A stretch of DNA of 64,000 nucleotides. Origin: Methylotuvimicrobium buryatense 5G. Lineage in GTDB: Bacteria > Pseudomonadota > Gammaproteobacteria > Methylococcales > Methylomonadaceae. Every line of letters begins with the position of its first letter. Position 1 is the first letter of the stretch. The position numbers were made by a program, and so were the translations under genes. The stretch spans positions 376,582 through 440,581 of the forward strand of contig NZ_KB455575.1 in the NCBI RefSeq assembly GCF_000341735.1. The letters run 5' to 3'. Positions 12,345-47,752 of this stretch are shown one piece after another. The notes beneath the pieces are model-generated. The model ran no database searches. It saw nothing but the letters and a program-made list of their open reading frames with translations, and was not told the DNA's origin.

Positions 12345-12474
12345 CGGCAGCCTTTATTGCCACAAAACAAAAAGCTAACAAATAAAATGTTATGCAAGCT
12401 TAGGTTGAATAGTCATAACATATTGATATGGCATTTATTTTAATGCGTTTACCCTGACTGGCAATCCCTGCCTC

Positions 12475-30164: not shown

Positions 30165-30185
30165 TGGGTTTTCCTGGAGGCTTGA

Positions 30186-32615
30186 TTAACCAATTTCAGA
30201 TAATTTAGGCTCCGAAACTGTCTTATTATGTACATACAGCGACTGAGTCGGGTAGGCGAATTCAATGCCTTCCTGTTGGAACTGTTGGTAAATGTCCAGA
30301 TTGATGGCTTGCTGCGCATCCATGTATACACCGTAGTCAGGGCTGAGCACATAATAGACGATTTCGAAATCGAGAGAGAACTCACCGTATTGAAAAAAAT
30401 GAGCGCGATCGAAGCGAGTTTTATCTCGCTTCTCGACGATTGCTTTGAGCATTGCCGGAATGGCTTGCAGCTTTTCATAGGGCGTATCATAGACCACGCC
30501 AAGTTTGAATACCACGCGCCGCTCTTGCATGCGTTTGTAGTTGCGGATACGGGTGTCGAGCAGTTCGCCATTGGCGCAAATGATCTGCTCGCCGGTGAGG
30601 CTGCGCAACCGGGTGGTTTTGACGCCGATATGTTCTATGGTGCCGAAAAAGTCGCCGAAATTAACGAAATCTCCGATTACGAAGGGTTTGTCGAGCACGA
30701 TAGACAGCGATGCGAATAAATCGCTGAGGATGCGTTGCAGCGCCAAAGCGATCGCGATACCGCCGATACCGAGACCGGCAACCAACGCGGTGATATCGAT
30801 GCCGATGTTTTGCAGGATCAGTAGCAGTGCAACTGCCCATAACAACACCTGGCTAATGAAATTAAGGATTGCCAAAGCGCCCATGCTCGCGCCGTCGCGC
30901 TTGGTTTTGCGCGACAAAATACGGAAAATCCAGGCCCGTATAAAACCGCTCAGCCAAATCGCGATCTGCAGTGCGATGACGACTTTTGTGATTTTGGCGA
31001 TCGTTGTGTCTGTGGCGGGGTCAAGCGTTAGCGATAATGATGCGAAAAAGACAGCGACGACCAGAAAAAAAATAAGATTGGCGCGTTTGACCGTGCTCAG
31101 AATTTCATTTGCTTGGGAGAAATGTTTGCGTTCGGCGGCATGCCTCAATCCGCGTATCAGAAACCAACGCAAAACGAATAATAAAATAAAGGTCACCGAC
31201 GCGATGGCAAAGGCGTAAAACCAATCCAATAGCGAATTATGATTGATCTCCATGTTGATTAAACTTTTGATCCGATCGCTAAGGTTGTATTGCGAGGTTC
31301 TGGCATTAATATCTTCGATTAAGTATTGGTGAAGCCGGCGGCTTTCATCCATGGCACCGTTTAATTCGGTCAACGTGCCGATGATACTTTGTATGTGTTC
31401 GCTTTGACGGGATTCCCAAATGGGCTTGTCCGGTATCGTTTTGCTGCCGACTGCATTCAGTCGGCTTTGCCAGTCGCTGAGCCAAAGCTTGATGGTGGCT
31501 TGTTCTTGTTCGATTTGTGTAATGGCTGAGTTAGAATGCGATCGCCAATTCGGTAATTCCTGTTGTTCGACCGATTCATTGAATAAGTCATGGCGCTTTT
31601 GCCATATCTCCTTTCTTTCCGAAATTAATTTTAGTTCGCGTTGCGCGGCATCGGTTTTCGATTTAAGTGCTTCTAGCTCCAGACGGCGCGCTTCTGTTTC
31701 TTCAATGGCGTGTATATCTTCGAAAGAAGCCGCTTCCAGACGCTTCCTGGCTTGATCTAATAGGCTTTGTGCCTTTGATTGCTGATCGTTGAGTCGAGAC
31801 AAATCGCGGTTCAGTTCGAATTGATGTTTGCGAATGCTCTCGTTTTTTTGGGTCAATTCCGAACTGTTGAAGCCGGCGTGTTGCTGTAAATAGTCGTTTT
31901 GACGACGTAATAGATCAAGATGGGTGTCGTAGACTGAAAACGTTTTTTCTTCGTTTTTCAGTTCCAGTTCGCGAAGCGTTTGTTGTTGTTCGGCGAGAGC
32001 ATGTTCCAATTCCGCCGCTTTCAGCAGCAAGGGCTCGATTGCGCCATTTTGATTTTGTATTTGAGTCAGTTTGTCTTGTGTTTGTTTAAATGCCAGTTGC
32101 GTTTGCGCCAAGCCTTCTTTAGCGAAATCGACTTTGGCGCGAACTACTTTAACCCGGGCCGACTCTATGGCGAGTTGTTCTCGTGCGCGGTCCAAATCCA
32201 AAACTGAAAAAGGTTTTTCAGGCTCAGGCTCTTTCTCTAGTCGGGCAATTTCTTGTAAGTCGGCGGTTTTTTGTGCATCTAATTCCTGACTTCGATTGAG
32301 TTCGATGATTTGTGCCGTAAAGGTTGCCGCTGTTTGTTCCAGCAGTGCGAGTTGCTTTTGTAATAGTTCGGAATCTTGGTCCGATGCTTTTTGCAAACGC
32401 CGGTTGATTTCAGTTCTTTCATTTTCCAAGGCTTTACGACGTTCCGTAATGGCTTCGATGGTTTGGTCGAGCGTGGCGTATTCGGTGCTATTCTCGGGTT
32501 CCGTAGCTTGTTGTGCGTCTTGAGACCAGGCTACATTAAACGGTGCCATCAAGAAAAATAGCAATAGCCATAGACTTGGATTTCGGGTCAGTGAAATTGC
32601 TTCGTTGATGTTCAT
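30186..32615 (-). CDS. Large MscS-family mechanosensitive channel with periplasmic coiled coil
   Basis: An 809-residue protein. Signal peptide about 1-31 (ending NVAWSQ). A long Glu/Gln-rich periplasmic coiled-coil region covers about 40-430, followed by about five membrane segments (450-640). The pore helix is GLGIGGIAIALALQRILSDLFASL, and the beta domain has LDKPFVIGDFVNFGDFFGTIEHIGVKTTRLRS (split over about 645-680). It resembles the KefA/MscM-type long MscS proteins and would protect against osmotic down-shock. The ade gene lies 21 nt downstream on the same strand, perhaps by chance. Confidence 0.88.
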   Translation of the reverse strand: MNINEAISLTRNPSLWLLLFFLMAPFNVAWSQDAQQATEPENSTEYATLDQTIEAITERRKALENERTEINRRLQKASDQDSELLQKQLALLEQTAATFTAQIIELNRSQELDAQKTADLQEIARLEKEPEPEKPFSVLDLDRAREQLAIESARVKVVRAKVDFAKEGLAQTQLAFKQTQDKLTQIQNQNGAIEPLLLKAAELEHALAEQQQTLRELELKNEEKTFSVYDTHLDLLRRQNDYLQQHAGFNSSELTQKNESIRKHQFELNRDLSRLNDQQSKAQSLLDQARKRLEAASFEDIHAIEETEARRLELEALKSKTDAAQRELKLISERKEIWQKRHDLFNESVEQQELPNWRSHSNSAITQIEQEQATIKLWLSDWQSRLNAVGSKTIPDKPIWESRQSEHIQSIIGTLTELNGAMDESRRLHQYLIEDINARTSQYNLSDRIKSLINMEINHNSLLDWFYAFAIASVTFILLFVLRWFLIRGLRHAAERKHFSQANEILSTVKRANLIFFLVVAVFFASLSLTLDPATDTTIAKITKVVIALQIAIWLSGFIRAWIFRILSRKTKRDGASMGALAILNFISQVLLWAVALLLILQNIGIDITALVAGLGIGGIAIALALQRILSDLFASLSIVLDKPFVIGDFVNFGDFFGTIEHIGVKTTRLRSLTGEQIICANGELLDTRIRNYKRMQERRVVFKLGVVYDTPYEKLQAIPAMLKAIVEKRDKTRFDRAHFFQYGEFSLDFEIVYYVLSPDYGVYMDAQQAINLDIYQQFQQEGIEFAYPTQSLYVHNKTVSEPKLSEIG

Positions 32616-33073
32616 GTTTATTCCTCGAATTTATTAGTAGGCCGTTTTCGTAGCGTACTCGGTCATAAGTCGTGTTTACCAAAATGTCGCGGCATTGCAA
32701 TCATCCCGGTTGTCAGCAATCAAAGTGTGTAAATTGGTGAAGGTGGAAACTTCGATTAACCGAGTTGACGCCAATTTTTACTGGTATCTACGTCCCGGGT
32801 ATTAGCGAGAGAGTATGATTAATTGGAAACTTAAATTTGATGGATGAGCGGCAGCTGCATTTGAAGTGTCGTGAAATCAATGAAAAATGATTATAAGCTC
32901 CCCTTTTGGAACTGGGAGTATCTAATATTTAAGACTTCACTGCAAATCGCGGCCGATCAGAATACCGGTGGTGGCAATTTCTTTTTTGGGGTTTTGGCGA
33001 AAATATCCTGGCGCTCGTATCAATTCGCCAGTTGTTCTTCAGCAGACGTTAAGTTTAATGAGCTATTTTAAGA
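32616..33073. other. Intergenic region, nothing recognised
   Basis: About 460 AT-rich bp between the divergent MscS and RlpA-like genes. It should contain both promoters. No family-like ORF, repeat copy or RNA gene was seen. Confidence 0.5.
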
Positions 33074-33640
33074 ATGTTTGTCAATATATTGAATTTTAAG
33101 TATCTTATGGCTTTTCAGTTGTTGCATAAAAAATCGTATCATTTGCTCGTTAGACGTAATTTCGGGTTCGCTGTCGTTTTGGCGATTTCTGCTTTGATGT
33201 TATTCGGTTGTTCAGTCAAACAACCGGTGCCGGAAGATGGCTTCGATAGAGCAATCGAATTCAAGAGAGATGCGCCTTATAACAGGCCTTACCAAGTGAA
33301 TGGCAAACGCTACTATCCCTTAGTCAATCCCAATGGATATAAAGAAAGAGGCATTGCTTCTTGGTATGGCGCCGAATCCGGCAATCGGACTGCGATGGGC
33401 GTCAAGTTTAATCCCGATGGCTTAAGCGCCGCGCATAAAACGCTTCCTTTACCTTCCAGAGTCAAAGTGACTAACTTGCAAAATGGCCGGTCGATTATTT
33501 TGGTCGTGAACGATCGCGGCCCCTTCGCCAAAAATCGTTTGATCGATCTATCGAAAGGCGCGGCTAAAGCGATAGGCGTTAAAGGACTTGTCGAAGTGGA
33601 AGTGGAGTATATCGGCGAGTATGCCGGTAGCAATAGATAG
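33074..33640 (+). CDS. RlpA-like double-psi beta-barrel lipoprotein
   Basis: Up to 188 residues. A hydrophobic export signal ends in a lipobox-like LMLFGC (Cys about 46), indicating a lipoprotein. The RlpA-type DPBB domain (about 90-180) has GIASWYGAESGNRTAMG, AAHKTLPLPSRVKVTNL and VNDRGPFAKNRLIDLSKGAA. RlpA proteins are peptidoglycan-acting septal lytic transglycosylases binding denuded glycans. There is no SPOR domain. The N-terminus is long for a signal peptide, so an internal ATG (33107) may be the true start. It stands alone between repeats. Confidence 0.85.
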   Translation: MFVNILNFKYLMAFQLLHKKSYHLLVRRNFGFAVVLAISALMLFGCSVKQPVPEDGFDRAIEFKRDAPYNRPYQVNGKRYYPLVNPNGYKERGIASWYGAESGNRTAMGVKFNPDGLSAAHKTLPLPSRVKVTNLQNGRSIILVVNDRGPFAKNRLIDLSKGAAKAIGVKGLVEVEVEYIGEYAGSNR

Positions 33641-33658
33641 TCGATGCCGACGCGAAAG

Positions 33659-33833
33659 TATACCTTTCGCACTTCAAATTTCGGCAGTGTCTAAGGAGGC
33701 ACCGGGGTGTGCGGCCCCTCACCTAACGCTAGGTGAGGGGCCAGCATGGAGCTGGCATAGAGCCTACAGGGACGTTTCACGGCGTCCTTTGACGGGCAAC
33801 CCCTGCGCCGAATTATGATCTACGAGGGGTATA
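33659..33833 (+). repeat. MITE-like element, copy 2
   Basis: A 175-bp copy with ends TATACCTTTCGCACTTCAAA and ...CTACGAGGGGTATA. Internally it carries a stem around CCCCTCACCTAACG / CTAGGTGAGGGGC not seen in the other copies, and the shared AGAGCCTACAGGGACG segment. The right end is the ATTTTGATC-type subtype also found at 60692-60787 (here TTATGATCTACGAGG). Confidence 0.8.
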
Positions 33834-33839
33834 AATCAT

Positions 33840-35114
33840 TCAGTCATACGTTTGATGAATAGGCAACCAAATCTTAAAACTGGCGCCCTCTCCGATTTGG
33901 CTCGAAACATCGATTCTGCCATGATGAGCTCGGACAATATTATTTGCGGTCGATAAGCCCAGGCCGATACCTTTGCCAATAGGGCGCGTCGTGAAAAACG
34001 GTTCAAATAATCGATGCATATGGTTCGGATTAATCCCGGGGCCGTCGTCTGCAATTTCCACCCATATTTGTTTGTCGTCGATACCGGTTCGTATGATGAT
34101 TTCGCCGGATTCGCCGACGGCTTGCCAGGCATTAGTCAGCAAACTTAAAAAAACTTGATTCATGAGTTGAGGAATGCATTCGATCTCGGGCGTGTCTCCA
34201 TATTCTTTGCGAATACGGCATTGGATATTTTGGCTGCAGACGAACACCTTTAAAGTCGTATCCAAGCTCTGCTTGATATCGTATTGTTGCCAGTTTTGGC
34301 CGTTGTCATCGGTGAATTGATTGAAGGCACGTACGATATTTCGTACTCGGGTTAAACCTTCTTTGGATTCGCTAATCAGATCGGCTATATCCTCGCGCAA
34401 AAAATTCCAGTCTTTTTGCTGCTTCAAGGCTTGTAATTTTTCGATACAGTCCGGTTGGGGCCGGCATTTGGAAAGTTGATTATCGTATTGGTCGATCAAG
34501 TCGAATATTTCGAGGGCATATTCTTGAAAGGAATTGAGGTTGGAAAAAATAAACCCCAACGGATTATTGATTTCGTGTGCAATGCCGGCCGCTAATTGAC
34601 CGATCGCGGCGAGTTTTTCCGATTGCATCAGTTCGGATTGAATCAATTGATGTTCCTGCATGCGTTTTTGCAGTTCCGTCTCGAGATGGATATTTTGATT
34701 TTGTAAGCGTTCGCGCGCTTTTTTAAGTTCTATTTGTAAGTTGACCCTGACCGATAATATCGATAAGTTGCAGGGTTTATAGAGATAATCCGCCGCACCC
34801 AACGAAAAACCGAATGTTTCGTCTAGTTCGGAGGTCAACGCCGTCACGAAAATGACAGGAATGTCTTGCGTCTTCGGATTACTCTTCAACGCTTTAATGA
34901 CTTCGTAACCATCCATGCCGGGCATCATAATGTCCAACAGTATGAGGTCTAGGGATGTATTATTCGCTATTTCCAAGGCTTTAGCGCCCGATGTTGCGAC
35001 CAATACCGCATAATCCGTCATCAAACATTGTCCGAAAACCGAAAGGTTGACGCTTTCGTCATCGACTATCAGAATGCTGGGGCGCTTATTAATGCTCGTG
35101 GTATCGTTTGACAT
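33840..35114 (-). CDS. Receiver-histidine kinase hybrid (REC-HisKA-HATPase)
   Basis: About 424 residues, soluble. The receiver domain (about 10-130) has VDDE, phosphorylatable LILLDIMMPGMDGYE (Asp about 59) and YLYKP. A coiled coil (130-165) leads to HisKA GIAHEINNPLGFIFSN (His about 180), and the ATPase domain has LLTNAWQAVG, DDGPGI, FEPFFTTRPIGKGIGLGLS. The reversed order (REC before kinase) is typical of kinases that relay from another kinase. It is divergent from the corrinoid/methyltransferase operon, 150 nt apart, and its receiver closely resembles that of the REC-GGDEF-EAL protein at 41261, suggesting one network. Confidence 0.9.
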   Translation of the reverse strand: MSNDTTSINKRPSILIVDDESVNLSVFGQCLMTDYAVLVATSGAKALEIANNTSLDLILLDIMMPGMDGYEVIKALKSNPKTQDIPVIFVTALTSELDETFGFSLGAADYLYKPCNLSILSVRVNLQIELKKARERLQNQNIHLETELQKRMQEHQLIQSELMQSEKLAAIGQLAAGIAHEINNPLGFIFSNLNSFQEYALEIFDLIDQYDNQLSKCRPQPDCIEKLQALKQQKDWNFLREDIADLISESKEGLTRVRNIVRAFNQFTDDNGQNWQQYDIKQSLDTTLKVFVCSQNIQCRIRKEYGDTPEIECIPQLMNQVFLSLLTNAWQAVGESGEIIIRTGIDDKQIWVEIADDGPGINPNHMHRLFEPFFTTRPIGKGIGLGLSTANNIVRAHHGRIDVSSQIGEGASFKIWLPIHQTYD

Positions 35115-35142
35115 CAAGACCTCAAAATTTATTTATCATCAT

Positions 35143-35252
35143 CGTAGATCAAAATTCGGCATCGGCGTCCTATCGGGCGAGTGACCGAACTCTTCGCCAC
35201 GCTGCGTACTTTCATCTGCCGGGGCGATCGATTGCCAGACCTTCATGAATAT
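35143..35252 (+). repeat. Dispersed repeat fragment between the kinase and corrinoid operons
   Basis: Starts with CGTAGATCAAAATTCGGC, the inverted right end of the MITE-like subtype at 60692. It continues with ATCGGGCGAGTGACCG, ACTTTCATCTGCCGGGG and ATTGCCAGACCTTCATGAA, homologous to 24690-24773. It lies in the promoter region of the corrinoid operon, 12 nt before the preferred start. Confidence 0.7.
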
Positions 35253-35264
35253 TACTATAGTAAT

Positions 35265-36950
35265 ATGAGTTCCACCCTCCAAGATAGTGCCCGAATTGCG
35301 GCTAAAAGACCGATGCCAAAAAATTTAGAATCCATCGAAGAAAAAAAATATTATCGGTTGCGCGTCAGCACGGATGATTGCGGTTTAGAGCTTTACCTGT
35401 CCGATTCGTTATCGGTTCGAGAAGCGCTAGATCATACCGAAATTCGGGTTCGTGCGGCCTGTGGAGGACTAGGTACATGCGGCGCTTGTTTGATACAAGT
35501 CATTTCCGGCCGGTTCAATCCTCCGACACCGGCAGAGCGGCAAAAATTATTGCCGGATCAATTGGTTCAGGGATATCGACTCGCCTGTCAATTAAGGACT
35601 CTGAGTGACGGTGAAGCCTACCTTGCCCATCCTGCTCCGCCGTCGCAATGGAGAAGTCCGGATCGATGCGAGTGGCCTACGGTCGAGTTTTCAAAAGATA
35701 TCGACGAGGTTCGGCAGCCGTATGGGATTGCGGTCGATTTAGGAACGACTCATATTCGTTTGTCTATTTGGAATCGTCATACCGCTCGGCTCATCGGTTG
35801 CCGGGTAGGTATCAATCCTCAAGTGGCTCATGGTGCCGATGTCTTGACTCGTTTGGATTCCCGGCGATTGGACGTTCATGCCTCGCGGGACTTGATGATC
35901 GAAGGGCGTAAGGCTATCTTGGACGGCATTCGAGATATTTTAAGCCGAGATTTTGGGGAAGTCGTTCACGTCCTTGACGAAACCGGAAAGATTATTATCG
36001 TCGGAAACACCGTCATGTTGATGTTGATTGGCGGCGGTAACGATAGCGATGATCTGTATCGGCTTGAAAATTGGCATATTCCTGTCGAGTGTCGAATCGA
36101 TGATATTGCCGCTTGGCGCCATGATTGGCGTATGCCCCATGCGGATATTTCGATCGCTCAGCCATTGGCCGGTTTTGTCGGGTCGGATTTATTGGCCGAT
36201 CTTTTGGCTTCAGGTATAACCGAGCAACCCGTTCCGATGCTGTTGGCGGATTTGGGAACCAATACTGAAATTGCTCTGTGGGACGGCACTGCGGCATGGG
36301 TGACATCGGTACCGGGCGGTCCGGCGTTTGAAGGCGTCGGGATGCGCAATGGTATGGCGGCTGAAACGGGTGCCGTTTATCGGGTTCGCGATGACGGCGA
36401 TCGTTGGCTGATTGCTACGATTGGCGATCAGCCGATTCGAGGATATTGTGCCAGTGGCTTCATCGATGCGATTGCAGTGATGTTGGACAAACAAATTCTC
36501 AAGCCCTCCGGTCGCTTTACCCAATCATTGCAACCGAGCGGTACGGGTTATCGGCTTGATGTCGACAATGCTAGGTCGGCGATTTTTGGTAGTGATGTCG
36601 ATATTTTTCAACGAGCCAAGGCTTCGACCGCCGCAGCCATGATGCAATTACTCGGATTTGCCGATTTGAAACCAAGCGATTTACAGGCTGTTTGGATTTG
36701 CGGCAGTTTGGGGCAGCATCTGGATTTACACAATGCGATTCGTGTCGGTTTGTTGCCCCGTTTACCGGTCGACAGATTCAAACGTTTTGCGAATGCGAGT
36801 CTGGCCGGGTGCGAGCAGTTGTTGCTGGACCGAAATGCAAATACTCGTTTAAATACGATCATAAGTAAGACAAAATCGATCAATTTAGGCGGGATAAGTA
36901 GCTATGAAGAAAGTTTTATCGAGCATTTGCGCTTGCAGCCGATGGCATAA
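35265..36950 (+). CDS. RACo-like reductive activator of corrinoid protein ([2Fe-2S] + DUF4445/ASKHA)
   Basis: About 561 residues. An N-terminal plant-type [2Fe-2S] domain has C-x5-C-x2-C-x32-C (CGGLGTCGAC, about residues 66-75, and LACQ about 107). The ASKHA-fold ATPase region of reductive activators begins with YGIAVDLGTTHIRLSIWN (about 180) and includes GADVLTRL, GNTVMLMLIGG, LLADLGTNTEIALWDG, ASGFIDAI and ICGSLGQHLD. Such proteins use ATP to reduce cob(II)alamin on corrinoid proteins back to Co(I). Start at 35265 is preferred because the upstream frame is a dispersed repeat. The corrinoid protein follows after 12 nt. Confidence 0.88.
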   Translation: MSSTLQDSARIAAKRPMPKNLESIEEKKYYRLRVSTDDCGLELYLSDSLSVREALDHTEIRVRAACGGLGTCGACLIQVISGRFNPPTPAERQKLLPDQLVQGYRLACQLRTLSDGEAYLAHPAPPSQWRSPDRCEWPTVEFSKDIDEVRQPYGIAVDLGTTHIRLSIWNRHTARLIGCRVGINPQVAHGADVLTRLDSRRLDVHASRDLMIEGRKAILDGIRDILSRDFGEVVHVLDETGKIIIVGNTVMLMLIGGGNDSDDLYRLENWHIPVECRIDDIAAWRHDWRMPHADISIAQPLAGFVGSDLLADLLASGITEQPVPMLLADLGTNTEIALWDGTAAWVTSVPGGPAFEGVGMRNGMAAETGAVYRVRDDGDRWLIATIGDQPIRGYCASGFIDAIAVMLDKQILKPSGRFTQSLQPSGTGYRLDVDNARSAIFGSDVDIFQRAKASTAAAMMQLLGFADLKPSDLQAVWICGSLGQHLDLHNAIRVGLLPRLPVDRFKRFANASLAGCEQLLLDRNANTRLNTIISKTKSINLGGISSYEESFIEHLRLQPMA

Positions 36951-36962
36951 GGGGGCCGAAAT

Positions 36963-37628
36963 ATGTTGAGTCGTTATGTGCAGGCATACAACGAAGCGGT
37001 TTTCGAAACCGATAAACAGGCGGCCTTGGCCGTGGTCGACGGGGCTCTACAGGACGGTTATAGCCCGGAAGATATTGTGTTCAATTTGGTCATCCCTGCC
37101 GTGGAAGCCATGATGGCGCGCATCGAACAGGACCCCGATTCCAATTTGGCGCAACATTTCATGACGGCACAAATCGCCTCGGAAGTGACCGAGCGAATGC
37201 TGGAAAAATTCGCTAGCCCGCCGGAAGCGATAGGCAAAGTGGTGATCGGCGCCGCCTATGGCGATTTACACTCGCTCGGTAAACGTATCGTGATCGGGTG
37301 TCTTAAATCGCTGATGGTGGATGTCATCGATCTAGGTATTAATATCCGCGCCGAACAATTTGTCGACAGGGCTGTTGAAAACGGCGCGCAAGTCATCGCG
37401 ATCTCAGCCATGATGGTGCATACCGCGACCGGCGAGAACGGCAGTATCAAGGTTCGAGCCTTATTAAAGGAGCGAGGCTTGGAAGACAAAATAAAATTGG
37501 CGGTTGGCGGCGCGCCTTACCGATTCGATCCGGAGTTATACAAAAAAGTGGGGGGCGACGCATGGGCTCCCGACGGCGTGACGGCGGCAAAAGTTATTAT
37601 CCAATTGATCAAAGAGGTGAACGCATGA
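36963..37628 (+). CDS. Corrinoid (B12-binding) methyl-carrier protein
   Basis: A 221-residue protein of the MtaC/MtbC/MttC/MetH-cap type. A four-helix cap domain (about 1-88) is followed by the Rossmann-like B12 domain (about 92-218). The base-off/His-on motif D-x-H-x2-G is intact as GDLHSLGKRI (D101, H103, G106). Later motifs are VIDLGINIRAEQFV, AISAMMVHTA and KLAVGGAPY. It would carry a methyl group on cobalt between methyltransferases and be reactivated by the RACo-like protein upstream. Coupled by ATGA to the UroD-family gene. The substrate methyltransferase (MtaB/MttB type) is not in the window. Confidence 0.92.
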   Translation: MLSRYVQAYNEAVFETDKQAALAVVDGALQDGYSPEDIVFNLVIPAVEAMMARIEQDPDSNLAQHFMTAQIASEVTERMLEKFASPPEAIGKVVIGAAYGDLHSLGKRIVIGCLKSLMVDVIDLGINIRAEQFVDRAVENGAQVIAISAMMVHTATGENGSIKVRALLKERGLEDKIKLAVGGAPYRFDPELYKKVGGDAWAPDGVTAAKVIIQLIKEVNA

Positions 37629-38653
37629 CACCTTTAGAAATTTTAGCGGCGGCTATAAACGGCGATCCGGCACCGCGTATTCCGATCTTTTGCAATTTGC
37701 TCGATCAAGGCGCGCGCGAACTCAATATGCACTCGCAAGATTATTTTGCTCGAGGAGAATGCGTGGCCGAAGCGCAATTGCGAATGTTAAAGCGCTTCGG
37801 TCATGACAATGCGTGGAGTTTGCATTATGTCGGCAAGGAAGCCGAATTGTTGGGCTGCCAAAAAATATTATTTGCCGATGACGGCGTGCCTAATGTGGAA
37901 GATTTCGTGATCAAGAATTGGGACGATATCGCCAAATTCGAAGTCCCAACCGATATTACTCAACATCAAGCGTGGCAGGCCATTGACGATTGTTTATCGA
38001 TTTTACGTGCCGAAATAGGGCAGACGCATGCCATTTGCGCTTACGTGACGGCCTCGACGACCTTGCCGGCCCTATTGATGGGCATGGATAACTGGATGGA
38101 GCTGTTTTTGACCGGGCCTGTCGATCTGCGCGACGAATTGTTGCGCAAATGCGTTGATTTTTTTCATCAGCACATTAACGCGCTGCGTGCGGCCGGAGCG
38201 AATGTTCTGATTTACTCGACGCCGTTCGGTTCGCCCTATTTGGTCGGTAATAAAATCATTGAACAAATCGTGTTGCCCTGGATGAAACTCGATTTGCAGC
38301 CGGGCGGCGTAGATGATGTCGTCTATTACTGCGGTATGGCGCCATTTAACGGCGTCATCGATTTGGTGTTTGACCAACTGGGCATCACCTCGCATTACAT
38401 CAGTCCATTGGCTGACTTGGCCGAAGCCAAGCGCTTGATCAATACCCGCGGCTTGACTTGTGGTGTGATAGACGACATCAAAATGATTCATTGGACTGAG
38501 GCGGAAACCAAAGCCGAAGTTAAACGCATCGTCGAGATAGGCAAGCAGGGCGGACATTTTTTATTCGGTAATGGCGTTATGCCTCTGGCAGTGCCGGAGG
38601 TCAATATCAAGGCGATGATAACGGCTGCCTTTGAGTACGGGCAGTTGACATGA
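37625..38653 (+). CDS. Uroporphyrinogen-decarboxylase-family methyltransferase (MtaA/MtbA-like) with altered zinc site
   Basis: A 342-residue TIM-barrel protein of the UroD/cobalamin-methyltransferase family, placed between a corrinoid protein and a DUF1638 gene, which makes methyl transfer rather than haem synthesis likely. By eye, the H-x-C...C zinc motif of MtaA/MtbA corresponds here to Y234-Y-C236 and, about 80 residues on, to FGNGVMP with Asn about 316 where the second Cys is expected. Two of three zinc ligands thus seem lost. Start at 37625 overlaps the previous stop (ATGA); the longer upstream frame is not needed. Methyl donor and acceptor are unknown. Confidence 0.85.
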   Translation: MTPLEILAAAINGDPAPRIPIFCNLLDQGARELNMHSQDYFARGECVAEAQLRMLKRFGHDNAWSLHYVGKEAELLGCQKILFADDGVPNVEDFVIKNWDDIAKFEVPTDITQHQAWQAIDDCLSILRAEIGQTHAICAYVTASTTLPALLMGMDNWMELFLTGPVDLRDELLRKCVDFFHQHINALRAAGANVLIYSTPFGSPYLVGNKIIEQIVLPWMKLDLQPGGVDDVVYYCGMAPFNGVIDLVFDQLGITSHYISPLADLAEAKRLINTRGLTCGVIDDIKMIHWTEAETKAEVKRIVEIGKQGGHFLFGNGVMPLAVPEVNIKAMITAAFEYGQLT

Positions 38654-39273
38654 AAAAATTTGTCCTGCATCAGGAGCATACAGAGCCCTTGACGATGGTC
38701 GGTTGCGGTATTTTGCGCAAAGAAGTCGACTATTTGATCCGGACTCATGGCTGGAATGTGCAAACGCATTTTTTGGATTCGGCCCTGCACAATTACCTGA
38801 ATCGTTTATCGAAAGAACTTAACGAAGCCTTGCAAGAGCATGAGGCGAAAGGCGAAAAAACCTTTGTTTTTTACGGGAGTTGCCATCCGTTGATGGACAA
38901 TTATTTGGACGAGCATCGCACTTGCCGTACCCGGGGGCAAAATTGCATCGTTATGTTATTGGGTTATGAGCGTTTCATGCAGGAGCTTGAAAAGGGTGCG
39001 TACTTTCTGGTCGAGGATTGGGCGTTGACCTGGCAACCGATGATCACGGCATGTTTCGGTAACAATATTACTGTCGTACGCGAAATTTTTCACAGTAGCC
39101 ATAAATTCATGCTTGCACTCAAAACCCCATGCAGCGTCGATTTTTCCGAAGCCGCTCAAACGGCGGCCGATTTTGTGGATTTGCCTTTACAGTGGCTCGA
39201 AGTGGATCTTGAACACTTAAAGCAAGTGTTGTTCGAAGCTATTAAGCAGCGATTAGATCAAGCAACGACTTGA
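38650..39273 (+). CDS. DUF1638 protein associated with corrinoid methyltransferases
   Basis: A 207-residue soluble protein recognised as DUF1638-like: MVGCGILRKEVDYLI near the N-terminus, VFYGSCHPLMDNYL (about 73-86), TCRTRGQNCIVMLLG, and YFLVEDWALTWQPM. Conserved Cys residues (about 19, 78, 91, 98) could bind a metal. DUF1638 genes commonly lie next to methyltransferase and corrinoid genes in anaerobes, but no function is established that I know of. ATGA overlap with the UroD-family gene; the kinase starts 6 nt after its stop. Confidence 0.82.
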   Translation: MKKFVLHQEHTEPLTMVGCGILRKEVDYLIRTHGWNVQTHFLDSALHNYLNRLSKELNEALQEHEAKGEKTFVFYGSCHPLMDNYLDEHRTCRTRGQNCIVMLLGYERFMQELEKGAYFLVEDWALTWQPMITACFGNNITVVREIFHSSHKFMLALKTPCSVDFSEAAQTAADFVDLPLQWLEVDLEHLKQVLFEAIKQRLDQATT

Positions 39274-39279
39274 ACGGGC

Positions 39280-41271
39280 ATGATGAATTCAAACGAACAT
39301 GATTTGCAAATGCGTATAGAGCACTTGGAACACCGTGTCCGTAAGCTATCCGAAGAAAAGGCCAATCTGCATCTTGTCCTGCATATGGTGGAATTGCTCA
39401 ATCCGATTGCCGGTATCGATTATTTCTTAGATAGTATGATCGCGGCTCTTTGCGGTAGTTTAGGCGGTACCAATACGGAGATTTATTATCTGGACGAAGG
39501 CGAGATTCACTATGTCAACTTATTCGGCGAAAAACGGATTGTCGGTGAGATTGAAGATTCGTTGGTGGCGGAGGTCTTTGCCACTCGCCATTTTGTCGAA
39601 CAAAATACCGATTTGAACCATACCTTGCTCAAGGATAATGTAGCGGCGGTGGCTTGTACTTGGGTGATGCCCTTAACTATCGGCGACCAAATTTTGGGTG
39701 TTGTCAAAATGTCCGATTTGCTTGGGTCGGCACAGATGCGCAATTATTTGGCACCGTTTTTTTCTCATATTGCGCTGATTCTGAACAATAAAATCCAAAC
39801 CCGTAAAGCGGAAGCCGCTAATCGCGCTAAAAGCAGTTTTTTAGCGACGATGTCGCACGAAATCCGCACACCGTTAAATGGGATTTTAGGTATGGCTCAA
39901 TTATTGGCCAAGCAAGAATGTAGCGATGCCAAGCGTATGGAGTGTGTGCGTACGATTTTGACCTCCGGCAACAATTTGCTTGCTTTGCTCAATGATATTT
40001 TAGATTTGTCTAAAATCGAGGCGAATCGCTTGGAGTTAAATTTATTAGCCGTTCAACCACAAAGGATCTTAGACGAAATCATGACGCTTTTTTCCGGTGC
40101 CGCCCAGCAAAAAGGCCTGAGAATTCATGCGGCCTGGGTAGATGGCGAGGTAAAGGCTTATCAAGTTGACTCGCTCAGAGTTAAGCAAATGTTATCCAAT
40201 CTGGTCAGTAATGCGATTAAGTTTACCGATCGCGGTTCTGTCCGGATTGAGGCACGTTCAATCCTTGATGAGTCGGGGAATTGCTTGTTGGAGTTTTCGG
40301 TCAGCGATACCGGTATCGGTATTCCAAAGGACAAGCAGCGCGAGTTATTTAAACCGTTTACCCAGGTCGATAGCAGTTCGAATCGACGCTATGTGGGTAC
40401 TGGGCTAGGTTTGTCGCTGGTGTCGCGTTTTGCCGAGTTGATGCAAGGCAAAGCAGGGTTTGAGAGCGATGAAGGGCAAGGTTCGCGTTTTTGGTTTCGG
40501 ATACCTACCCGAGTCGATAATGAGATCGACAACACCGCTTTACCATCCAATATCGATGAATCATCCCAATTATCGAATCTAAATCTTAAGTTAAAACGCG
40601 TATTATTGATCGCTAGCGATTCCGTGCATGGTGCTAATTTGTCGGCACAACTTAAGGCTCGATCTATCGACGCGTTTAGCATTGATCTTGACGATCAAAT
40701 TCCGGACGTTATCGACAAGGATCTAGGATTTGATGCAATCATTATTGAGTCAAGTTTGGAAAATAGATCTCTTAGCCGCCTTGCGAGAAAGATTCGTGAC
40801 TTGGAGTCGGCTAATCGTCTTCCTCGCGCATTCATCATCGGTATTAGCGATAAACAGCATAGCGATGAGTTGGACACGGAATTTGAGCAGGATATCGATG
40901 AGTTGCTCGTTCGGCCTTTTACGATAGAGCATTTAGTGAACGTTATCGAAAGCCATATTCGTTTATCTGCGGCTCTGCAACAAAAGACAGTCATTTGTAA
41001 TGAGGAAGAACGCTTGTTTTTCAAGAATTGTGAGGGTATCACCGAGATTCTCGATGATCTCGAACGCCAGTTGGAAAAAAATATGTTCACGGCTGTTGAG
41101 CAGTTTAACATGCTGCAAGCAAAAGTGGACGGTAGTTCGATCGCTTCGCATTTTGTCGCGCTTGGTAAACTAATCAATGATATGAATTTTGAGGAGGCTC
41201 ATTTACAGCTAAAGTTATTGCGCGAGCGATTCTCCGAGACCGAGACGAAGGAAACGCATTGTGGGCATTGA
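39280..41271 (+). CDS. Hybrid-type sensor histidine kinase with degenerate receiver
   Basis: A 663-residue soluble kinase. A short coiled coil (about 8-35) and a GAF-like sensor domain (about 35-170) precede HisKA FLATMSHEIRTPLNGILGMAQ (His about 193). The ATPase domain has NLVSNAIKFTDRGS, DTGIGI, FKPFTQVDSSSNRRYVGTGLGLSLV. A receiver-like domain (about 440-565) lacks the acidic pair and the phospho-acceptor: FDAIIIESSLENRS stands where LDxxMP is expected, though VRPF is kept. A helical tail of about 85 residues might be Hpt-like. Last but one gene of the corrinoid operon, so a methyl-transfer state is a possible signal. Confidence 0.87.
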   Translation: MMNSNEHDLQMRIEHLEHRVRKLSEEKANLHLVLHMVELLNPIAGIDYFLDSMIAALCGSLGGTNTEIYYLDEGEIHYVNLFGEKRIVGEIEDSLVAEVFATRHFVEQNTDLNHTLLKDNVAAVACTWVMPLTIGDQILGVVKMSDLLGSAQMRNYLAPFFSHIALILNNKIQTRKAEAANRAKSSFLATMSHEIRTPLNGILGMAQLLAKQECSDAKRMECVRTILTSGNNLLALLNDILDLSKIEANRLELNLLAVQPQRILDEIMTLFSGAAQQKGLRIHAAWVDGEVKAYQVDSLRVKQMLSNLVSNAIKFTDRGSVRIEARSILDESGNCLLEFSVSDTGIGIPKDKQRELFKPFTQVDSSSNRRYVGTGLGLSLVSRFAELMQGKAGFESDEGQGSRFWFRIPTRVDNEIDNTALPSNIDESSQLSNLNLKLKRVLLIASDSVHGANLSAQLKARSIDAFSIDLDDQIPDVIDKDLGFDAIIIESSLENRSLSRLARKIRDLESANRLPRAFIIGISDKQHSDELDTEFEQDIDELLVRPFTIEHLVNVIESHIRLSAALQQKTVICNEEERLFFKNCEGITEILDDLERQLEKNMFTAVEQFNMLQAKVDGSSIASHFVALGKLINDMNFEEAHLQLKLLRERFSETETKETHCGH

Positions 41272-43387
41272 GCGCCAGAAAATCCTGATAATCGACGATA
41301 CGCCGGCCAATATTACGTTGTTGGGGATGGCATTAAAGGATCACTACGAGATCCAGATCGCGACTAGCGGTAAAAAAGGCTTGGAGCTGGCTAGCGAGAC
41401 TCCGCCCGATTTGGTTTTGCTCGATATCATGATGCCCGATCTCGATGGCTATGAAACCTGCCGGTTATTCAAGGCCGATGAAAGGTTGCGGCATATACCG
41501 ATTATTTTCGTGACTGCGTTGAGCGAAATCGAAGCTGAAATTCAAGGTTTATCGCTGGGTGCGGCAGATTATTTGGTCAAACCGTTTAATCTCCAGATTG
41601 CTCAGCTTAGGGTGCGCAATTTATTGGAAACCGAACGAATGCGGCAGGCGTTGCGTCAGACGGAAGAAGATCAACGTCTTGCCGCGACCGTCTTTGCCTA
41701 TAGTCATGACGGCATCGTGATTACCGATGTTGAAAACCGTATTATCAATGTCAATAACGCCTTTAGCCGTATTACCGGTTATGGACTTGACGAAATCAAA
41801 GGCCAAAACCCAAGCATACTCAAATCGGGGCGGCAGGATACCGAATTCTACCAAAACATGTGGCAAGCCTTGTTATCGGAAGGTCACTGGAGCGGCGAAA
41901 TTTGGAATCGCAACAAGCAGGGTGAGATTTACGCGGCTTTGACGTCTATTGCTGTGGTCAGGGACGATCAAGACAGCATTCATCATTTCATCGGTTCATT
42001 TATCGACATTACTCCGATCAAAGAACATCAGCACGCATTGGAACGTATCGCGCATTTCGATCCCTTGACCGGGGTTCCGAACCGCTTTTTATTATCGGAT
42101 CGATTGGAACAAGCCATTGTTCATACGCGGCGGTCGCGAAAATTAATGGCGGTGTGTTATCTGGATCTGGATGAATTTAAACCGATCAATGATCGATTCG
42201 GTCATCAAGTCGGCGATCAATTATTGATAGAAATTACCCGTCGCATCAAGGCTTGTTTACGCGAAGGCGATACGTTGGCACGCATAGGCGGCGATGAGTT
42301 TGTATTATTATTGTTGGATATCAATGACAGAGGCGAATGTAAGACGATATTACGAAGAATTCTCAAAGCTGTTTCGGCAAAAATGTTGTTGGCGAATCAA
42401 TATGTGTCGGTATCATTGAGCTTGGGTTTTACTCTGTATCCGGATGATTTTTCCGATACTGAAACACTGATTCGACATGCCGATCAAGCGATGTATCAAG
42501 CCAAGCAACAAGGTAAGAATCGATTTCAACGTTTCGACATGCTTCAAGAAAAACATGCATACGAGCAAGGGAAGCAACTTGCCCGTATCGAATGCGCATT
42601 GGCCAATAATGAATTTGTGTTGTATTTTCAGCCGAAGATCAATCTTCGCGATGGCGCTATTCTGGGAGTCGAGGCCTTGATTCGCTGGCAACATCCCGCG
42701 CGTGGTTTACTGAGCCCCTCCATGTTTTTGCCGATGATTCAAGGCAGTCAGCTTGAGATTAATATCGGCGATTGGGTGTTATCGACTGCCTTGAGTCGGT
42801 GGAATCAATGGAAAAAAGCAGGGGTCGATATTGCCATTAGTATTAATATTGCCGCTGGAGCATTGCTGCACCCTGACTTTGTTGAGAATTTATCCGCTAA
42901 ATGTGCCGAATATCCGGATTTGCAGTCAGGCTGTCTTGAGTTGGAAATACTGGAGACCGGAGCATTGGATGATGACGAACGCGCGATTAAGGTAATGAAG
43001 GCTTGCCAAGCTTTGGGTGTCGTATTTGCGCTCGACGATTTCGGAACAGGCTATTCGTCGTTGAGTTATCTGAAATCCTTACCGGCAAAAACGTTAAAAA
43101 TCGACCGGTCGTTTGTATTGGGTATGCTGGAAAATGAAGGAGATTTAGCGATCGTTAAAGGGATTATTGATCTAGCCTCGATATTCAAAATGCAAGTCAT
43201 CTCGGAAGGCGTCGAAACAGTCGCGCACTTATTGAAATTACTTGAGCTAGGTTGTGAAAATGGTCAAGGGTATGCAATTGCAAAACCGATGCCAGAGGAG
43301 GATTTGCTCAATTGGTTAAAAGAATGGCAGTTGGAGCAAAAGAATTATCTTAAAAAAGCATTTCACCATGAAGAGCATGAAGATTAA
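41261..43387 (+). CDS. REC-PAS-GGDEF-EAL c-di-GMP enzyme
   Basis: A 708-residue response regulator. The receiver (about 1-120) has IIDDTPAN and LVLLDIMMPDLDGYE (Asp about 52). PAS (about 135-255) has VENRIINVNNAFSRITGY. GGDEF is intact (ARIGGDEFVLLLLD, about 345), and EAL is intact (VEALIRWQHP, LDDFGTGYSS, SEGVET). Both synthesis and hydrolysis of c-di-GMP are possible. GTG start behind AAGGAAA overlaps the kinase stop by 11 nt, making it the likely partner. The last residues FHHEEHED derive from a dispersed repeat. Confidence 0.92.
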   Translation: MGIERQKILIIDDTPANITLLGMALKDHYEIQIATSGKKGLELASETPPDLVLLDIMMPDLDGYETCRLFKADERLRHIPIIFVTALSEIEAEIQGLSLGAADYLVKPFNLQIAQLRVRNLLETERMRQALRQTEEDQRLAATVFAYSHDGIVITDVENRIINVNNAFSRITGYGLDEIKGQNPSILKSGRQDTEFYQNMWQALLSEGHWSGEIWNRNKQGEIYAALTSIAVVRDDQDSIHHFIGSFIDITPIKEHQHALERIAHFDPLTGVPNRFLLSDRLEQAIVHTRRSRKLMAVCYLDLDEFKPINDRFGHQVGDQLLIEITRRIKACLREGDTLARIGGDEFVLLLLDINDRGECKTILRRILKAVSAKMLLANQYVSVSLSLGFTLYPDDFSDTETLIRHADQAMYQAKQQGKNRFQRFDMLQEKHAYEQGKQLARIECALANNEFVLYFQPKINLRDGAILGVEALIRWQHPARGLLSPSMFLPMIQGSQLEINIGDWVLSTALSRWNQWKKAGVDIAISINIAAGALLHPDFVENLSAKCAEYPDLQSGCLELEILETGALDDDERAIKVMKACQALGVVFALDDFGTGYSSLSYLKSLPAKTLKIDRSFVLGMLENEGDLAIVKGIIDLASIFKMQVISEGVETVAHLLKLLELGCENGQGYAIAKPMPEEDLLNWLKEWQLEQKNYLKKAFHHEEHED
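43359..43385 (+). repeat. Small accatgaag repeat, copy e (forms gene 3' end)
   Basis: TTTCACCATGAAGAGCATGA and following bases encode the C-terminal HHEEHED of the REC-PAS-GGDEF-EAL protein, whose stop follows at once. It is the same family as at 20034 and 22901. Confidence 0.65.
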
Positions 43388-43392
43388 GAAGT

Positions 43393-43531
43393 TATACCTA
43401 TCGCACTTCAAATTTCGGCATTAGCGTATGAAGGCGTCGGGGTGTTCGGCAAAGGCTTTGCCAGCATGGACGTATTCACGGCGTCCTTTGACGGACACCC
43501 CGGCACCGAAGTTTGACCAGCAAAGGGTATA
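43393..43531 (+). repeat. MITE-like element, copy 3
   Basis: A 139-bp copy beginning 5 nt after the stop of the REC-PAS-GGDEF-EAL gene. It has both ends but lacks the internal ATGCTGTCATAGAGCCTACA segment of longer copies. Confidence 0.85.
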
Positions 43532-43596
43532 TAAAACTTTCGCTTACTCAAGAAGTTGGCAGCGATGTTTAGATAATTTCTTGAATGTTTCAAGAA

Positions 43597-43619
43597 ATTC
43601 ATGTGCTTCATGGTTAAAT
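43597..43619 (-). repeat. Small accatgaag repeat, copy f (fragment)
   Basis: The reverse strand reads TTTAACCATGAAGCACATGAA, matching the copy at 22901. Confidence 0.5.
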
Positions 43620-43656
43620 TGCAGCAATTCCCAGTTTGAGCAGTTTCGCCGATTTT

Positions 43657-43857
43657 AGGGTGTGGGGTATGCCTGTCGAGGAACGCCGTAAACCCATCCA
43701 TGGGGGCTTGGCGGCAGCTCGAACGCCAAGGATGGCCTGAATGCAGATTTTGCAGGAGCAAAAATCTGCAAGCGCCAAGGATGGCGTGAATGCAGATTTT
43801 GCAGGAGCAAAAATCTGCCCTGCCGCCGACATCCTCGCCAAGCATACCCCACACCCT
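43657..43857. repeat. Second MITE-like element with perfect 16-bp terminal repeats and internal 49-bp tandem duplication
   Basis: AGGGTGTGGGGTATGC (43657-43672) is exactly inverted at 43842-43857. Inside, a 49-bp unit starting CGCCAAGGATGGC is present twice (43724-43772, 43773-43821), each with a hairpin GCAGATTTTGC...GCAAAAATCTGC. The right end (GCCGACATCCTCGC then GCAxACCCC) recurs at 45283-45320. It has no coding potential. It lies downstream of bioA (reverse strand) and could act in its transcript 3' end. Confidence 0.75.
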
Positions 43858-43917
43858 TTTTGATCTCCAAATTGGGAATTGCTGGTTAAATTGCCGAATT
43901 TAGGCTTATTGAATCGA

Positions 43918-45195
43918 TTACTGTAAGGTTTGAAAAACCGCCTCGGTTAATTTTTGCAGTTGATGTTCATCGATTATATAAGGCGGCATAGTATAGATTA
44001 AACGCCCGAAAGGCCTTAACCAAACGCCTTGTTTAACCAAGCGGTCTTGAATTTCGGAAAGGCACACAGGGTTTTTCATTTCAACGACACCGATAGCGCC
44101 GAGCACTCTGACATCGTCGACGCTAGCCAGGTTGCGGCACGGTTCCAAGCCCTTTTTTAGCCCGGCTTCTATGGCCGTGACCTGGCTTTGCCAATCCGAG
44201 TCGAGTAATAAGTCGATGCTTGCTGATGCGATGCTGCAGGCCAGCGGATTTCCCATGAATGTCGGCCCGTGCATGAAGCAGCCGGCCGGTCCTTCCGAAA
44301 TCGATTCGGCGACTTTGTCGGTCGTTAATGTTGCGGCTAGCGTCAGGTAACCGCCGGTTAAGGCCTTGCCGAGACACAAAATATCCGGAGAAATGCCGGC
44401 ATGTTCGCAAGCGAACAGTTTGCCGGTACGACCGAAGCCGGTCGCAATTTCGTCGGCGATCAGCAAGACATCATATTTTTTGCACAAGGCGCTTACCGAT
44501 TTCAGATAGTCGGGATGATAAAACCACATGCCCCCCGCGCCTTGTACGATTGGTTCGAGAATGACCGCCGCGCAGGAGTCGCCGTGCTTCGATAGAATGG
44601 ATTCCAACGAATCGATATCGGACGGATTCCAAGATTCGCCGAAACGGCAAGCGGGCCGCTGCGCGAAATGGTGCTGAGGCAATACGGGATTGAATAAATG
44701 ATGCATGCCGGTAACCGGGTCGCAGACCGACATCGCGCCGAAGGTATCGCCGTGATAACCGCCCCGAAGCGCCACGAATCGGTTTTTTTCGGGTTTGCCG
44801 AGCGCTTGCCAATATTGAATGGCCATCTTCAATGCGACTTCGACGCTGACCGATCCGGAGTCGCTCAAAAACACCGAACTCAAGCCCTCGGGGGTGATTT
44901 TCAATAGACGCTCGACCAATTCGATTGCCGGCGTATGCGTAATGCCGCCGAACATCACATGGGCCATCGATTGTAATTGTTCCGTGGCCGCTTGATTGAG
45001 CTTGGGGTGATTGTAACCGTGTATTGCCGACCACCAAGACGACATTCCGTCGATCAATTCGCGGCCATCGGCCAGTTTAAGCATGACGCCGGAGGCGCTG
45101 GCGACATGATAAACCGGTGTCGGTGCTGTCATTGACGTGTAGGGATGCCAGATATGGTCGCGGTCGAGTTGCAGTAGTGTGTTGAGTTGAGTCAT
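43918..45195 (-). CDS. bioA: Adenosylmethionine-8-amino-7-oxononanoate aminotransferase
   Basis: A 425-residue class III PLP aminotransferase of biotin synthesis, converting KAPA to DAPA with S-adenosylmethionine as amino donor. BioA hallmarks: [13 protein letters not shown] at the N-terminus, [56 protein letters not shown] and [17 protein letters not shown] with the PLP lysine (about 274). It stands alone; other biotin genes are not nearby. Length matches the family. Confidence 0.95.
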
Positions 45196-45238
45196 TGATC
45201 TGAATAAGGTAGAGGGGTGTTATGATTCTAAATTAGTC

Positions 45239-45277
45239 GCGTAGGTCGGGTTAGCGCTAGCGTAACCCGACCTACGC
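45239..45277. repeat. Perfect 15-bp hairpin repeat upstream of bioA
   Basis: GCGTAGGTCGGGTTA (45239-45253) and TAACCCGACCTACGC (45263-45277) form a perfect stem with 9-nt loop. It is followed by a fragment of the 43657 element (to about 45320). It lies 44 nt before the bioA start, within its presumed leader or promoter. Confidence 0.7.
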
Positions 45278-45377
45278 GGCGGCTGCCGACATCCTCGCTA
45301 GGCAAACCCCCCGCACCTTTTCATTCAAGGATGCAATCCATGTGTGATTCAGCGCATGACTGCCAAAGCGTTTACGT

Positions 45378-46859: not shown

Positions 46860-47035
46860 AAATTTAACCTTCTTTTCTGTTGCTTATGGCGCGTAAGGAA
46901 ATTTGTAAAAGTTTAAACCTAAAAAGAGCATTTGAGTGCTTCAACTACCGTTCGCCCTGAGCCCTTCGGCTACGCTCAGGAGAGCCCTGTCGAAGCGGTG
47001 AAGGGTAGTTTGAGACTTCACCAATGCGGTGAAAG

Positions 47036-47087
47036 TGTTGTAGACCGTTCATGCTTCGACTTGGCTCAGTACGAACGGTCTACAACA
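47036..47087. repeat. Perfect 15-bp inverted repeat
   Basis: TGTTGTAGACCGTTC (47036-47050) is exactly inverted at 47073-47087. The preceding bases (from about 46945, CGTTCGCCCTGAGCCCTTCG) are of the common cgccctgagc...gtcgaag dispersed-repeat type. Confidence 0.7.
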
Positions 47088-47115
47088 CATGCCAACGTAA
47101 TTATTCACACCCCCT

Positions 47116-47219
47116 ATCGTTCCTACGCTCCGGCGTGGGAATGAAGACCGAGACGCTCTAGCGTCTCGTACCGCTGGAGCGATACTCAGGCGTTCCCACG
47201 CCGGAGCGTGGGAACGATA
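47116..47219. repeat. Dispersed repeat with 29-bp terminal inverted ends
   Basis: TATCGTTCCTACGCTCCGGC through GGGAATG (47116-47144) is inverted with two mismatches at 47191-47219. The middle contains GAGACGCTCT/AGCGTCTC. It is a familiar cgttcccacgc-type palindromic repeat. Confidence 0.75.
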
Positions 47220-47265
47220 ATTTTCGGGGGACTGAATAATTACATGCCAACTGTTCATTTTGGGT

Positions 47266-47427
47266 TATATCTATCGCACTTCAAATTTCGGCATTAGCGT
47301 ATGGAGGCGTCGGGGTGTTCGGCAAAGGCTTTGGCAGCATGGATGCTGTCATAGAGCCTACATGTACGTATTCATTGCGTCCTTTGACGGGCACCCCGAC
47401 GCCGAAATTTGACTAGCAAAGGGTATA
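47266..47427 (+). repeat. MITE-like element, copy 4
   Basis: A 162-bp full copy, nearly identical to the next one. It is the best reference for the family: ends TATATCTATCGCACTTCAAA and GACTAGCAAAGGGTATA. Confidence 0.9.
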
Positions 47428-47547
47428 AAAGATTCTTTGGCCAATATGTTTTTGCCTTGTTGACTGAATCCTCGAGCGTTAATATTAGCGGGTAGCTTTT
47501 AAGGCTTTTCTCAAAAAACAATAAAATGCACTTTACCTACGTGTGTA

Positions 47548-47709: not shown

Positions 47710-47752
47710 TAAGGATTATTTTTTAAATTTCAAAATTATTCAGGAATTCTTT

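Follow-up and report, generated by a model that had tools for sequence, protein, structure and literature searches.

The established roles of corrinoid methyltransferases are catabolic or biosynthetic, and such enzyme sets normally serve to digest methylated compounds. According to the available excerpts of PMC9768040, the mec cassettes of anaerobic dichloromethane degraders also encode reactivation proteins together with a kinase and a receiver. In Phaeobacter, DUF1638 and a RamA-like protein have been assigned to B12 reactivation (PMC5764234, in the part available), the excerpts of PMC12478193 make the same link for both proteins, and PMC12542648 is a third paper in which DUF1638 or PF07796 appears. 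Here we describe a gene cluster in a window of 64,000 nucleotides from Methylotuvimicrobium buryatense 5G (coordinates are those of the window), in which genes for a RACo-like reactivase, a corrinoid protein, a UroD-family methyltransferase and a DUF1638 protein are followed by those of a histidine kinase and of a GGDEF-EAL protein of cyclic di-GMP (c-di-GMP) signaling. The pairing of the corrinoid protein and UroD with a GAF domain, the protein fusions, the exchange of outputs among lineages and the absence of MTTB methyltransferases from the carrier genomes searched lead us to regard the cluster as probably a conserved corrinoid/methyltransferase input module for signaling proteins, with c-di-GMP as one lineage-dependent output. 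All the parts belong to known families, and the novelty is the linkage. Among the matches listed in the open PMC literature, with subscription journals and preprints lying outside it, we recognized by title or abstract no description of a corrinoid methyltransferase as the input of a kinase. The features of the cluster, with the basis of each assignment, are the following.

33840..35117, minus strand: REC-HisKA-HATPase protein, divergent from the operon (Pfam)
35268..36950, plus strand: RACo/RamA-like ATP-dependent corrinoid reactivase with a [2Fe-2S] Fer2 domain, ATG start (Pfam)
36963..37628, plus strand: corrinoid protein, MtaC/MtgC-like, with B12-binding_2 and B12-binding domains and an intact DxHxxG motif (Pfam, NCBIfam)
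37625..38653, plus strand: UroD-family methyltransferase of the type A subfamily, MtaA zinc ligands partly kept (Pfam URO-D)
38650..39273, plus strand: DUF1638 protein with a putative metal site, proposed to connect the corrinoid protein with the kinase (Pfam)
39280..41271, plus strand: sensor histidine kinase, GAF-HisKA-HATPase (Pfam; GAF fold from structure match)
39307..39801, plus strand: "HKN" GAF domain of this kinase, with a long N-terminal helix (profile and AlphaFold structure match)
41261..43387, plus strand: REC-PAS-GGDEF-EAL response regulator, the c-di-GMP output of this lineage (Pfam)

A sequence-only reading of this DNA had described the gene content, strand and spacing correctly. 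Open reading frames (ORFs) and Pfam domains bear out six same-strand genes with gaps of 12, -4, -4, 6 and -11 nt, the ORF coordinates place a divergent REC-kinase 150 nt away, and its receiver shares 47% identity across 130 aa with the one in the GGDEF-EAL protein, in line with the close similarity claimed. The D-x-H-x2-G motif of the corrinoid protein, reported as intact, reads GDLHSLGK in translation, and an in-frame GTG at 35181 offers an alternative start upstream of the RACo ATG at 35268. As expected of two-component proteins, the kinase combines HisKA and HATPase domains with the H-box SHEIRTPLNG, and the phospho-acceptor motif of the REC domain reads LLDIMMP.

The association between UroD and the GAF domain recurs beyond chance in near relatives. 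Of 101 genomes, 16 contain UroD, the window genome being one of them; in 14 of the 15 others it is of type A, from 98% down to 53% identical, and an HKN protein is adjacent in all 14. G053 (locus L039) has a 63-residue UroD stretch, with the rest of the system not seen within 16.9 kb. DUF1638 was recognized in 12 of the 14 type A relatives (not in L030 and L035) and RACo in all of them but L030, the G010 copy being on another contig (L036). In L022 to L025, L027, L028 and L034 the kinase is followed on the same strand by a REC-PAS-GGDEF or REC-PAS-GGDEF-EAL gene, L029 has a REC-GGDEF-EAL gene upstream instead, and in the same-genus relative L023 (5188-7276) the REC-PAS-GGDEF-EAL gene is present as two ORFs, the other cluster genes being whole. 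Among 398 Pseudomonadota genomes, 11 have type A UroD (E below 1e-160) and the same 11 have HKN, neighboring, with a DUF1638 match between the two in 11/11; these are not 11 independent events, since they come from five genera only.

To look beyond these genomes, the type A UroD profile alone was used as bait with one genome per species, which confirmed 120 relatives, and the best 80 (L089 to L168) were analyzed. Most of the 80 loci are metagenome-assembled genomes (MAGs) by title, with rough gene calls near contig ends, and the domain counts rest on hidden Markov models built from these loci, Pfam having been applied to a small part. The best 80 of the 120 span at least eight phyla by record title, with carriers among Methylomonas, Rhodocyclaceae, Magnetococcales, Mariprofundus, Geobacteraceae, Desulfuromonadaceae, Nitrospirae, Acidobacteria, Verrucomicrobia, Chloroflexi, Anammoxibacter, Ignavibacteriales and Hydrogenedentes. 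The clusters of L133 (titled Alphaproteobacteria) and L137 (Bacteroidales) are almost identical, which points to a binning error or a very recent transfer; because of this likeness Bacteroidota were left out of the carrier phyla, and not all MAG phylum labels are safe.

A corrinoid ORF lies 5' of UroD in all 80 loci (79 by the automatic rule and L154, where the corrinoid gene is a separate ORF and UroD is split, by reading), DUF1638 lies 3' of UroD in 75, and RACo falls inside the fetched stretch in 59. Fourteen of the 21 RACo-less stretches are titled Geobacteraceae, Desulfuromonadaceae or kin, Verrucomicrobia or Chloroflexi. In 71 loci HKN lies downstream, no more than 3.5 kb away and on the same strand, and what it is attached to varies: 58 of these have a kinase domain, three (L106, L112 and L124) have the GAF domain attached to GGDEF-EAL without a kinase (PAS-GGDEF-EAL-CZB by Pfam in L106 and L112), five are cut by contig ends and five have no recognized output. 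The kinase side is thus conserved with the corrinoid genes, as the neighborhood search proposed by the sequence-only reading was meant to find out, and control of c-di-GMP, which it had also put forward, holds in a lineage-dependent way, a GGDEF or EAL ORF being present in 25 of the 80 fetched stretches (some of these stretches are short) and the gene being split in L023. The divergent upstream REC-kinase also recurs in several Methylomonas loci (e.g., L094 to L097 and L101).

Where the HKN protein is missing, three loci are cut by contig ends (L118 and L155, which end soon after UroD, and L167), five carry other sensor kinases (L138, L161, L163, L165 and L166, with a PAS-kinase in place of the HKN protein in L161) and L145 has signaling genes on the opposite strand only. 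In one UroD subclade, an ethylene-receptor-type ETR1_N (PF25487) plus PAS kinase replaces the GAF kinase: Pfam identifies ETR1_N-PAS-kinases in L163 (9693-13079) and L166 (9650-11548) at E of about 1e-29, and L165 and L167 have ETR1_N-like N termini by eye. Pfam also finds a PhnD-like periplasmic binding protein (9803-10648) and a HAMP kinase in L138 and, among the signaling genes of the Mariprofundus locus L132, an NMT1/THI5-like periplasmic binding protein (11681-12724); both binding proteins are perhaps extra ligand inputs.

A second subfamily, type B UroD, is joined to signaling by a different protein architecture. It comprises nine weaker matches (1e-31 to 1e-44) in the 398 Pseudomonadota genomes, eight of which form one clade in the tree with the Methylococcales loci L037 and L038 (L216 was not included). 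A DUF1638-kinase fusion follows type B UroD in seven of the nine loci (L069, L071, L074, L076, L209, L210 and L211), the remaining two (L077 and L216) being cut by contig ends. Pfam places DUF1638 and HATPase in one protein in L069, L074, L037 and L038, and a Geobacter MAG (L159) encodes a single DUF1638-GAF-HisKA-HATPase protein. Three genomes (G109, G144 and G145) carry both systems, type A with separate DUF1638 and GAF proteins and type B with the DUF1638-kinase fusion.

As a control, 20 DUF1638 loci from 57 DUF1638-bearing genomes were picked before their neighborhoods were known. Twelve have a type A or B UroD, and signaling genes accompany it in 10 of these, L072 and L077 ending within the DUF1638 frame; L075 has a DUF1638-kinase right at the contig start. 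The seven control loci lacking a type A or B UroD (L078 and L081 to L086) gave no histidine kinase, REC, GGDEF or EAL match in 17 to 18 kb. Six of the seven have a corrinoid match, and L084 has RACo and DUF1638 but no corrinoid match. We read these seven as a metabolic kind, a label that follows from the absent type A or B UroD, MTTB not having been looked for in them.

The GAF domain was absent from the sequence-only reading. It occupies kinase residues 10 to 174 (39307-39801) and is divergent, lying under the Pfam cutoff: the match in the window is GAF_2 at 0.029, and the best among 16 HKN members is 2.4e-06 (GAF). Compared with the Protein Data Bank (PDB), the AlphaFold model (pLDDT of 91.5) gave 111 matches at E <= 0.001, the highest-ranking of them to GAF domains. 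Pfam recognized no PocR domain in the kinase and nothing in its C-terminal third (40534-41271), which may be a degenerate receiver; relatives such as L092 have a REC match there.

The DUF1638 protein keeps C19, C78 and C99 invariant in 85 type A rows, in the seven rows of the control kind and in 12 type B rows (two of them gapped at C19). H47 is kept in 84/85 type A and 7/7 control-kind rows and not in type B, where the rows read have a Cys one column before the H47 position, perhaps by an alignment shift; because that column fails in type B, what can be said for all types is limited to the three cysteines. At position 25, the acidic residue was tallied solely within the class C/H/D/E. Together the conserved residues look like a metal site. 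The AlphaFold model (pLDDT of 95) had no fold match in the PDB at E <= 0.001. As part of the sensor proposed below, DUF1638 would be a reader of the corrinoid state common to reactivation and signaling.

RACo has its Fer2, RACo middle and C-terminal ASKHA domains all above the Pfam cutoffs, as in a reactivase, and falls below the NCBIfam cutoffs for AcsV and RamA; the corrinoid protein likewise has the domains of MtaC/MtgC and scores below the NCBIfam cutoffs for the named subfamilies. UroD reached 74.2 bits against a cutoff of 235.4 on TIGR01463 (MtaA/CmuA). Aligned to PDB 4ay7, in which we take the residues HxC...C to bind zinc, it keeps one Cys of the set, has Tyr in place of His and lacks the last Cys. 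With a score below the cutoff and the zinc ligands mostly replaced, an MtaA-type thiol methyltransferase was rejected.

The following scheme is what we infer from these sequences, including the sensor role, the contacts between the proteins, the methyl ligand and the way in which the signal flows. RACo, by means of ATP and its iron-sulfur cluster, would hold the corrinoid protein reactive, and UroD would transfer methyl between cobalt and a small methylated ligand. Without a second methyltransferase, the charged corrinoid state would persist. The state of the cobalt, methylated or not, would reach the GAF domain of the kinase directly or via DUF1638, and the GAF domain would set the activity of the kinase (or of GGDEF-EAL); in this lineage, the kinase would pass phosphate to the REC-PAS-GGDEF-EAL protein at its REC domain and so change c-di-GMP. 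The detected signal would be either a methyl donor or the corrinoid redox state. We give somewhat better than an even chance to the first, that is, to a new and widespread class of sensors that detect by methyl-transfer chemistry at a cobalt corrinoid: a methylated compound from the environment would give up its methyl group to the corrinoid, and the protein so charged would switch GAF kinases or GGDEF-EAL enzymes, DUF1638 serving as the adaptor. The sequence-only reading had suggested either a corrinoid-based sensor for methylated compounds or a methyl-utilization pathway with its own kinase; the conserved GAF protein (71/80 loci) and the DUF1638-kinase and GAF-GGDEF-EAL fusions favor the sensor, and the sensing of methylated compounds as such is a matter of interpretation.

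Within the sensor idea, the main rival is redox or oxygen sensing via cobalt. The same proteins would then respond to oxygen or to electrons of low potential: Co(I) would be oxidized to Co(II) and restored by RACo, and these two processes would set the kinase, with UroD as a structural or recharging partner. This agrees with a RACo that uses ATP and 2Fe-2S lying close by in 59 of the 80 loci, with the loss of most of the MtaA zinc site in UroD and with the habits of many carriers, Methylomonas, Mariprofundus, Gallionellaceae and Magnetococcales being redox-gradient bacteria. We nevertheless think it unlikely. In the 50 loci that have the full set of five components, pairwise identity averages 69% for the corrinoid protein, 66% for UroD, 62% for DUF1638, 51% for RACo and 43% for HKN: the detecting pair of corrinoid protein and UroD is conserved, the sensor domain has diverged more and the outputs are variable. 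A UroD almost as conserved as its corrinoid partner points to a conserved ligand and away from a scaffold role, and the repair enzyme on which the redox scheme depends is missing from the fetched stretch of 21 loci.

Outside the sensor idea, the main rival is a mec-like catabolic cassette, an ordinary methyl-utilization set under its own two-component system. Every catalytic part does come from families used in catabolism, and the mec cassettes have the kinase, receiver and reactivation proteins noted above (PMC9768040, as excerpted). The genomes argue otherwise, and we consider this reading improbable. The window genome (5.07 Mb in two contigs, with a single DUF1638 match) has no MTTB protein and no MtrH over the cutoff, and its pterin-binding domains lie in frames of 298 and 1229 aa only, read as FolP and MetH, the longer one combining pterin-binding and B12-binding domains. 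MTTB was absent from nine of nine further carriers (G109, G117, G125, G144, G145, G205, G041, G058 and G070, the first four being assigned to the genus of Mariprofundus sp. KV), whose pterin-binding frames fall into two size classes, 279 to 441 and 1224 to 1285 aa. The earlier statement that no MtaB/MttB-type enzyme is present therefore holds genome-wide for MTTB, MtaB (PF12176) not having been searched. Pfam found no MTII-type gene in the cluster, and the pterin-binding frames of the genome are FolP- or MetH-sized only, which sets the locus apart from mec. A split methionine synthase or MtgBCD system does not fit either, as the window genome and the nine carriers have no MTTB and no pterin-binding frame other than those of FolP or MetH size (PF02574 was not searched); MtgB belongs to the MttB superfamily. 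The direct DUF1638-kinase and GAF-GGDEF-EAL fusions also speak against catabolism, transcription-factor outputs not having been looked for specifically.

Two metabolic roles were rejected for the cluster: a methyl-utilization cassette, on the ten carriers without MTTB and with FolP- or MetH-sized pterin-binding frames (MtrH checked in the window genome, MtaB not searched), and methionine synthesis, the genome having the 1229-aa MetH-like frame.

That the kinase is a mere passenger of a mobile corrinoid cluster, through shared ancestry or chance, is hardly credible, kinases being common genes and the UroD tree mixing some phyla but the co-occurrence being exact in the 398 genomes (11/11, the GAF domain in five genera), the association holding down to about 50% pairwise UroD identity and the two UroD subfamilies having different fusion solutions.

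Several observations count against the proposed input module and temper our estimate. Five of the 80 loci (L131, L139, L146, L156 and L158) have the HKN protein directly after UroD without DUF1638, nine lack the HKN protein, and 21 have no RACo in the fetched stretch. Catalysis by UroD is not certain, because one MtaA zinc ligand only is kept. Remote GAF relatives could have been missed, since the HKN profile was built from UroD-linked members and at most nine candidates per genome were considered. The case against catabolic and methionine synthase roles covers MTTB and pterin-binding frames in ten carriers and MtrH in the window genome. DUF1638 and a RamA-like protein are linked to B12 reactivation in Phaeobacter (PMC5764234, in the part available), so that their presence alone is no proof of signaling, and the excerpts of PMC9768040 treat the mec cassettes as catabolic with transcriptional control.

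If the input module is real, bacteria of several phyla would have a new means of detecting methylated compounds (or the corrinoid redox state), through histidine kinases and c-di-GMP enzymes. It would account for the corrinoid genes of Mariprofundus-like bacteria, in which four of four genomes tested are without an MTTB methyltransferase, and DUF1638 would gain a directly testable function.

Regarding transcription, the sequence-only reading had named a terminator or separate promoter before 39280 as evidence that would tell against its interpretation. Sites of both kinds occur at chance level between 35000 and 43600 (13 promoter-like sites versus 13.6 in shuffles, and nine terminator-like sites versus 9.4); no promoter-like site starts on the plus strand between 35974 and 39578, and two weak plus-strand terminator-like sites lie inside the DUF1638 gene (38883-38896 and 39151-39167). 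With counts at chance, a separate promoter or terminator ahead of the kinase was rejected. A cobalamin riboswitch or other Rfam element was also rejected, none reaching the gathering threshold in 28000-48000. Farther away on the minus strand (24855-30164), there are xanthine-dehydrogenase-like and adenine-deaminase-like genes, recognized by eye.

Compared with known systems, the locus shares single traits with several. CarH is a DNA-binding adenosylcobalamin photoreceptor without a reactivase or methyltransferase; it resembles the proposed module in using a corrinoid for sensing and differs from it in that an MtaC-type protein, RACo and UroD are found here. MsmS and RdmS of Methanosarcina are, like the kinases described here, linked to corrinoid methyltransferases, but they are heme redox kinases that control expression, and the corrinoid protein is not their input. 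The methylcobamide:CoM methyltransferases MtaA and MtbA (PDB 4ay7) have the UroD fold and a corrinoid protein partner in common with the present enzyme, from which the subfamily score and the mostly replaced zinc ligands separate them. The split methionine synthase and MtgBCD systems of Phaeobacter and Ruegeria share the corrinoid protein, the RamA-like protein and DUF1638 (PMC5764234 and PMC12478193, in the parts available), and the seven UroD-less DUF1638 loci, which we read as of that kind, have the same three DUF1638 cysteines; on their side there is a stand-alone pterin-binding plus PF02574 protein, or MtgB, and the available parts of both papers name no kinase, whereas the present system has the UroD enzyme and kinases. 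The mec cassettes are alike in clustering a corrinoid protein, an MtaA/CmuA-family methyltransferase, probable reactivation proteins (MecGH) and two-component genes. As far as the excerpts of PMC9768040 go, they have several MTI proteins, an MTII (MecF), a transporter and a PocR-domain kinase with a receiver regulator, whereas the system described here has one methyltransferase, no MTII that we found, a GAF kinase, and c-di-GMP or hybrid-kinase outputs.

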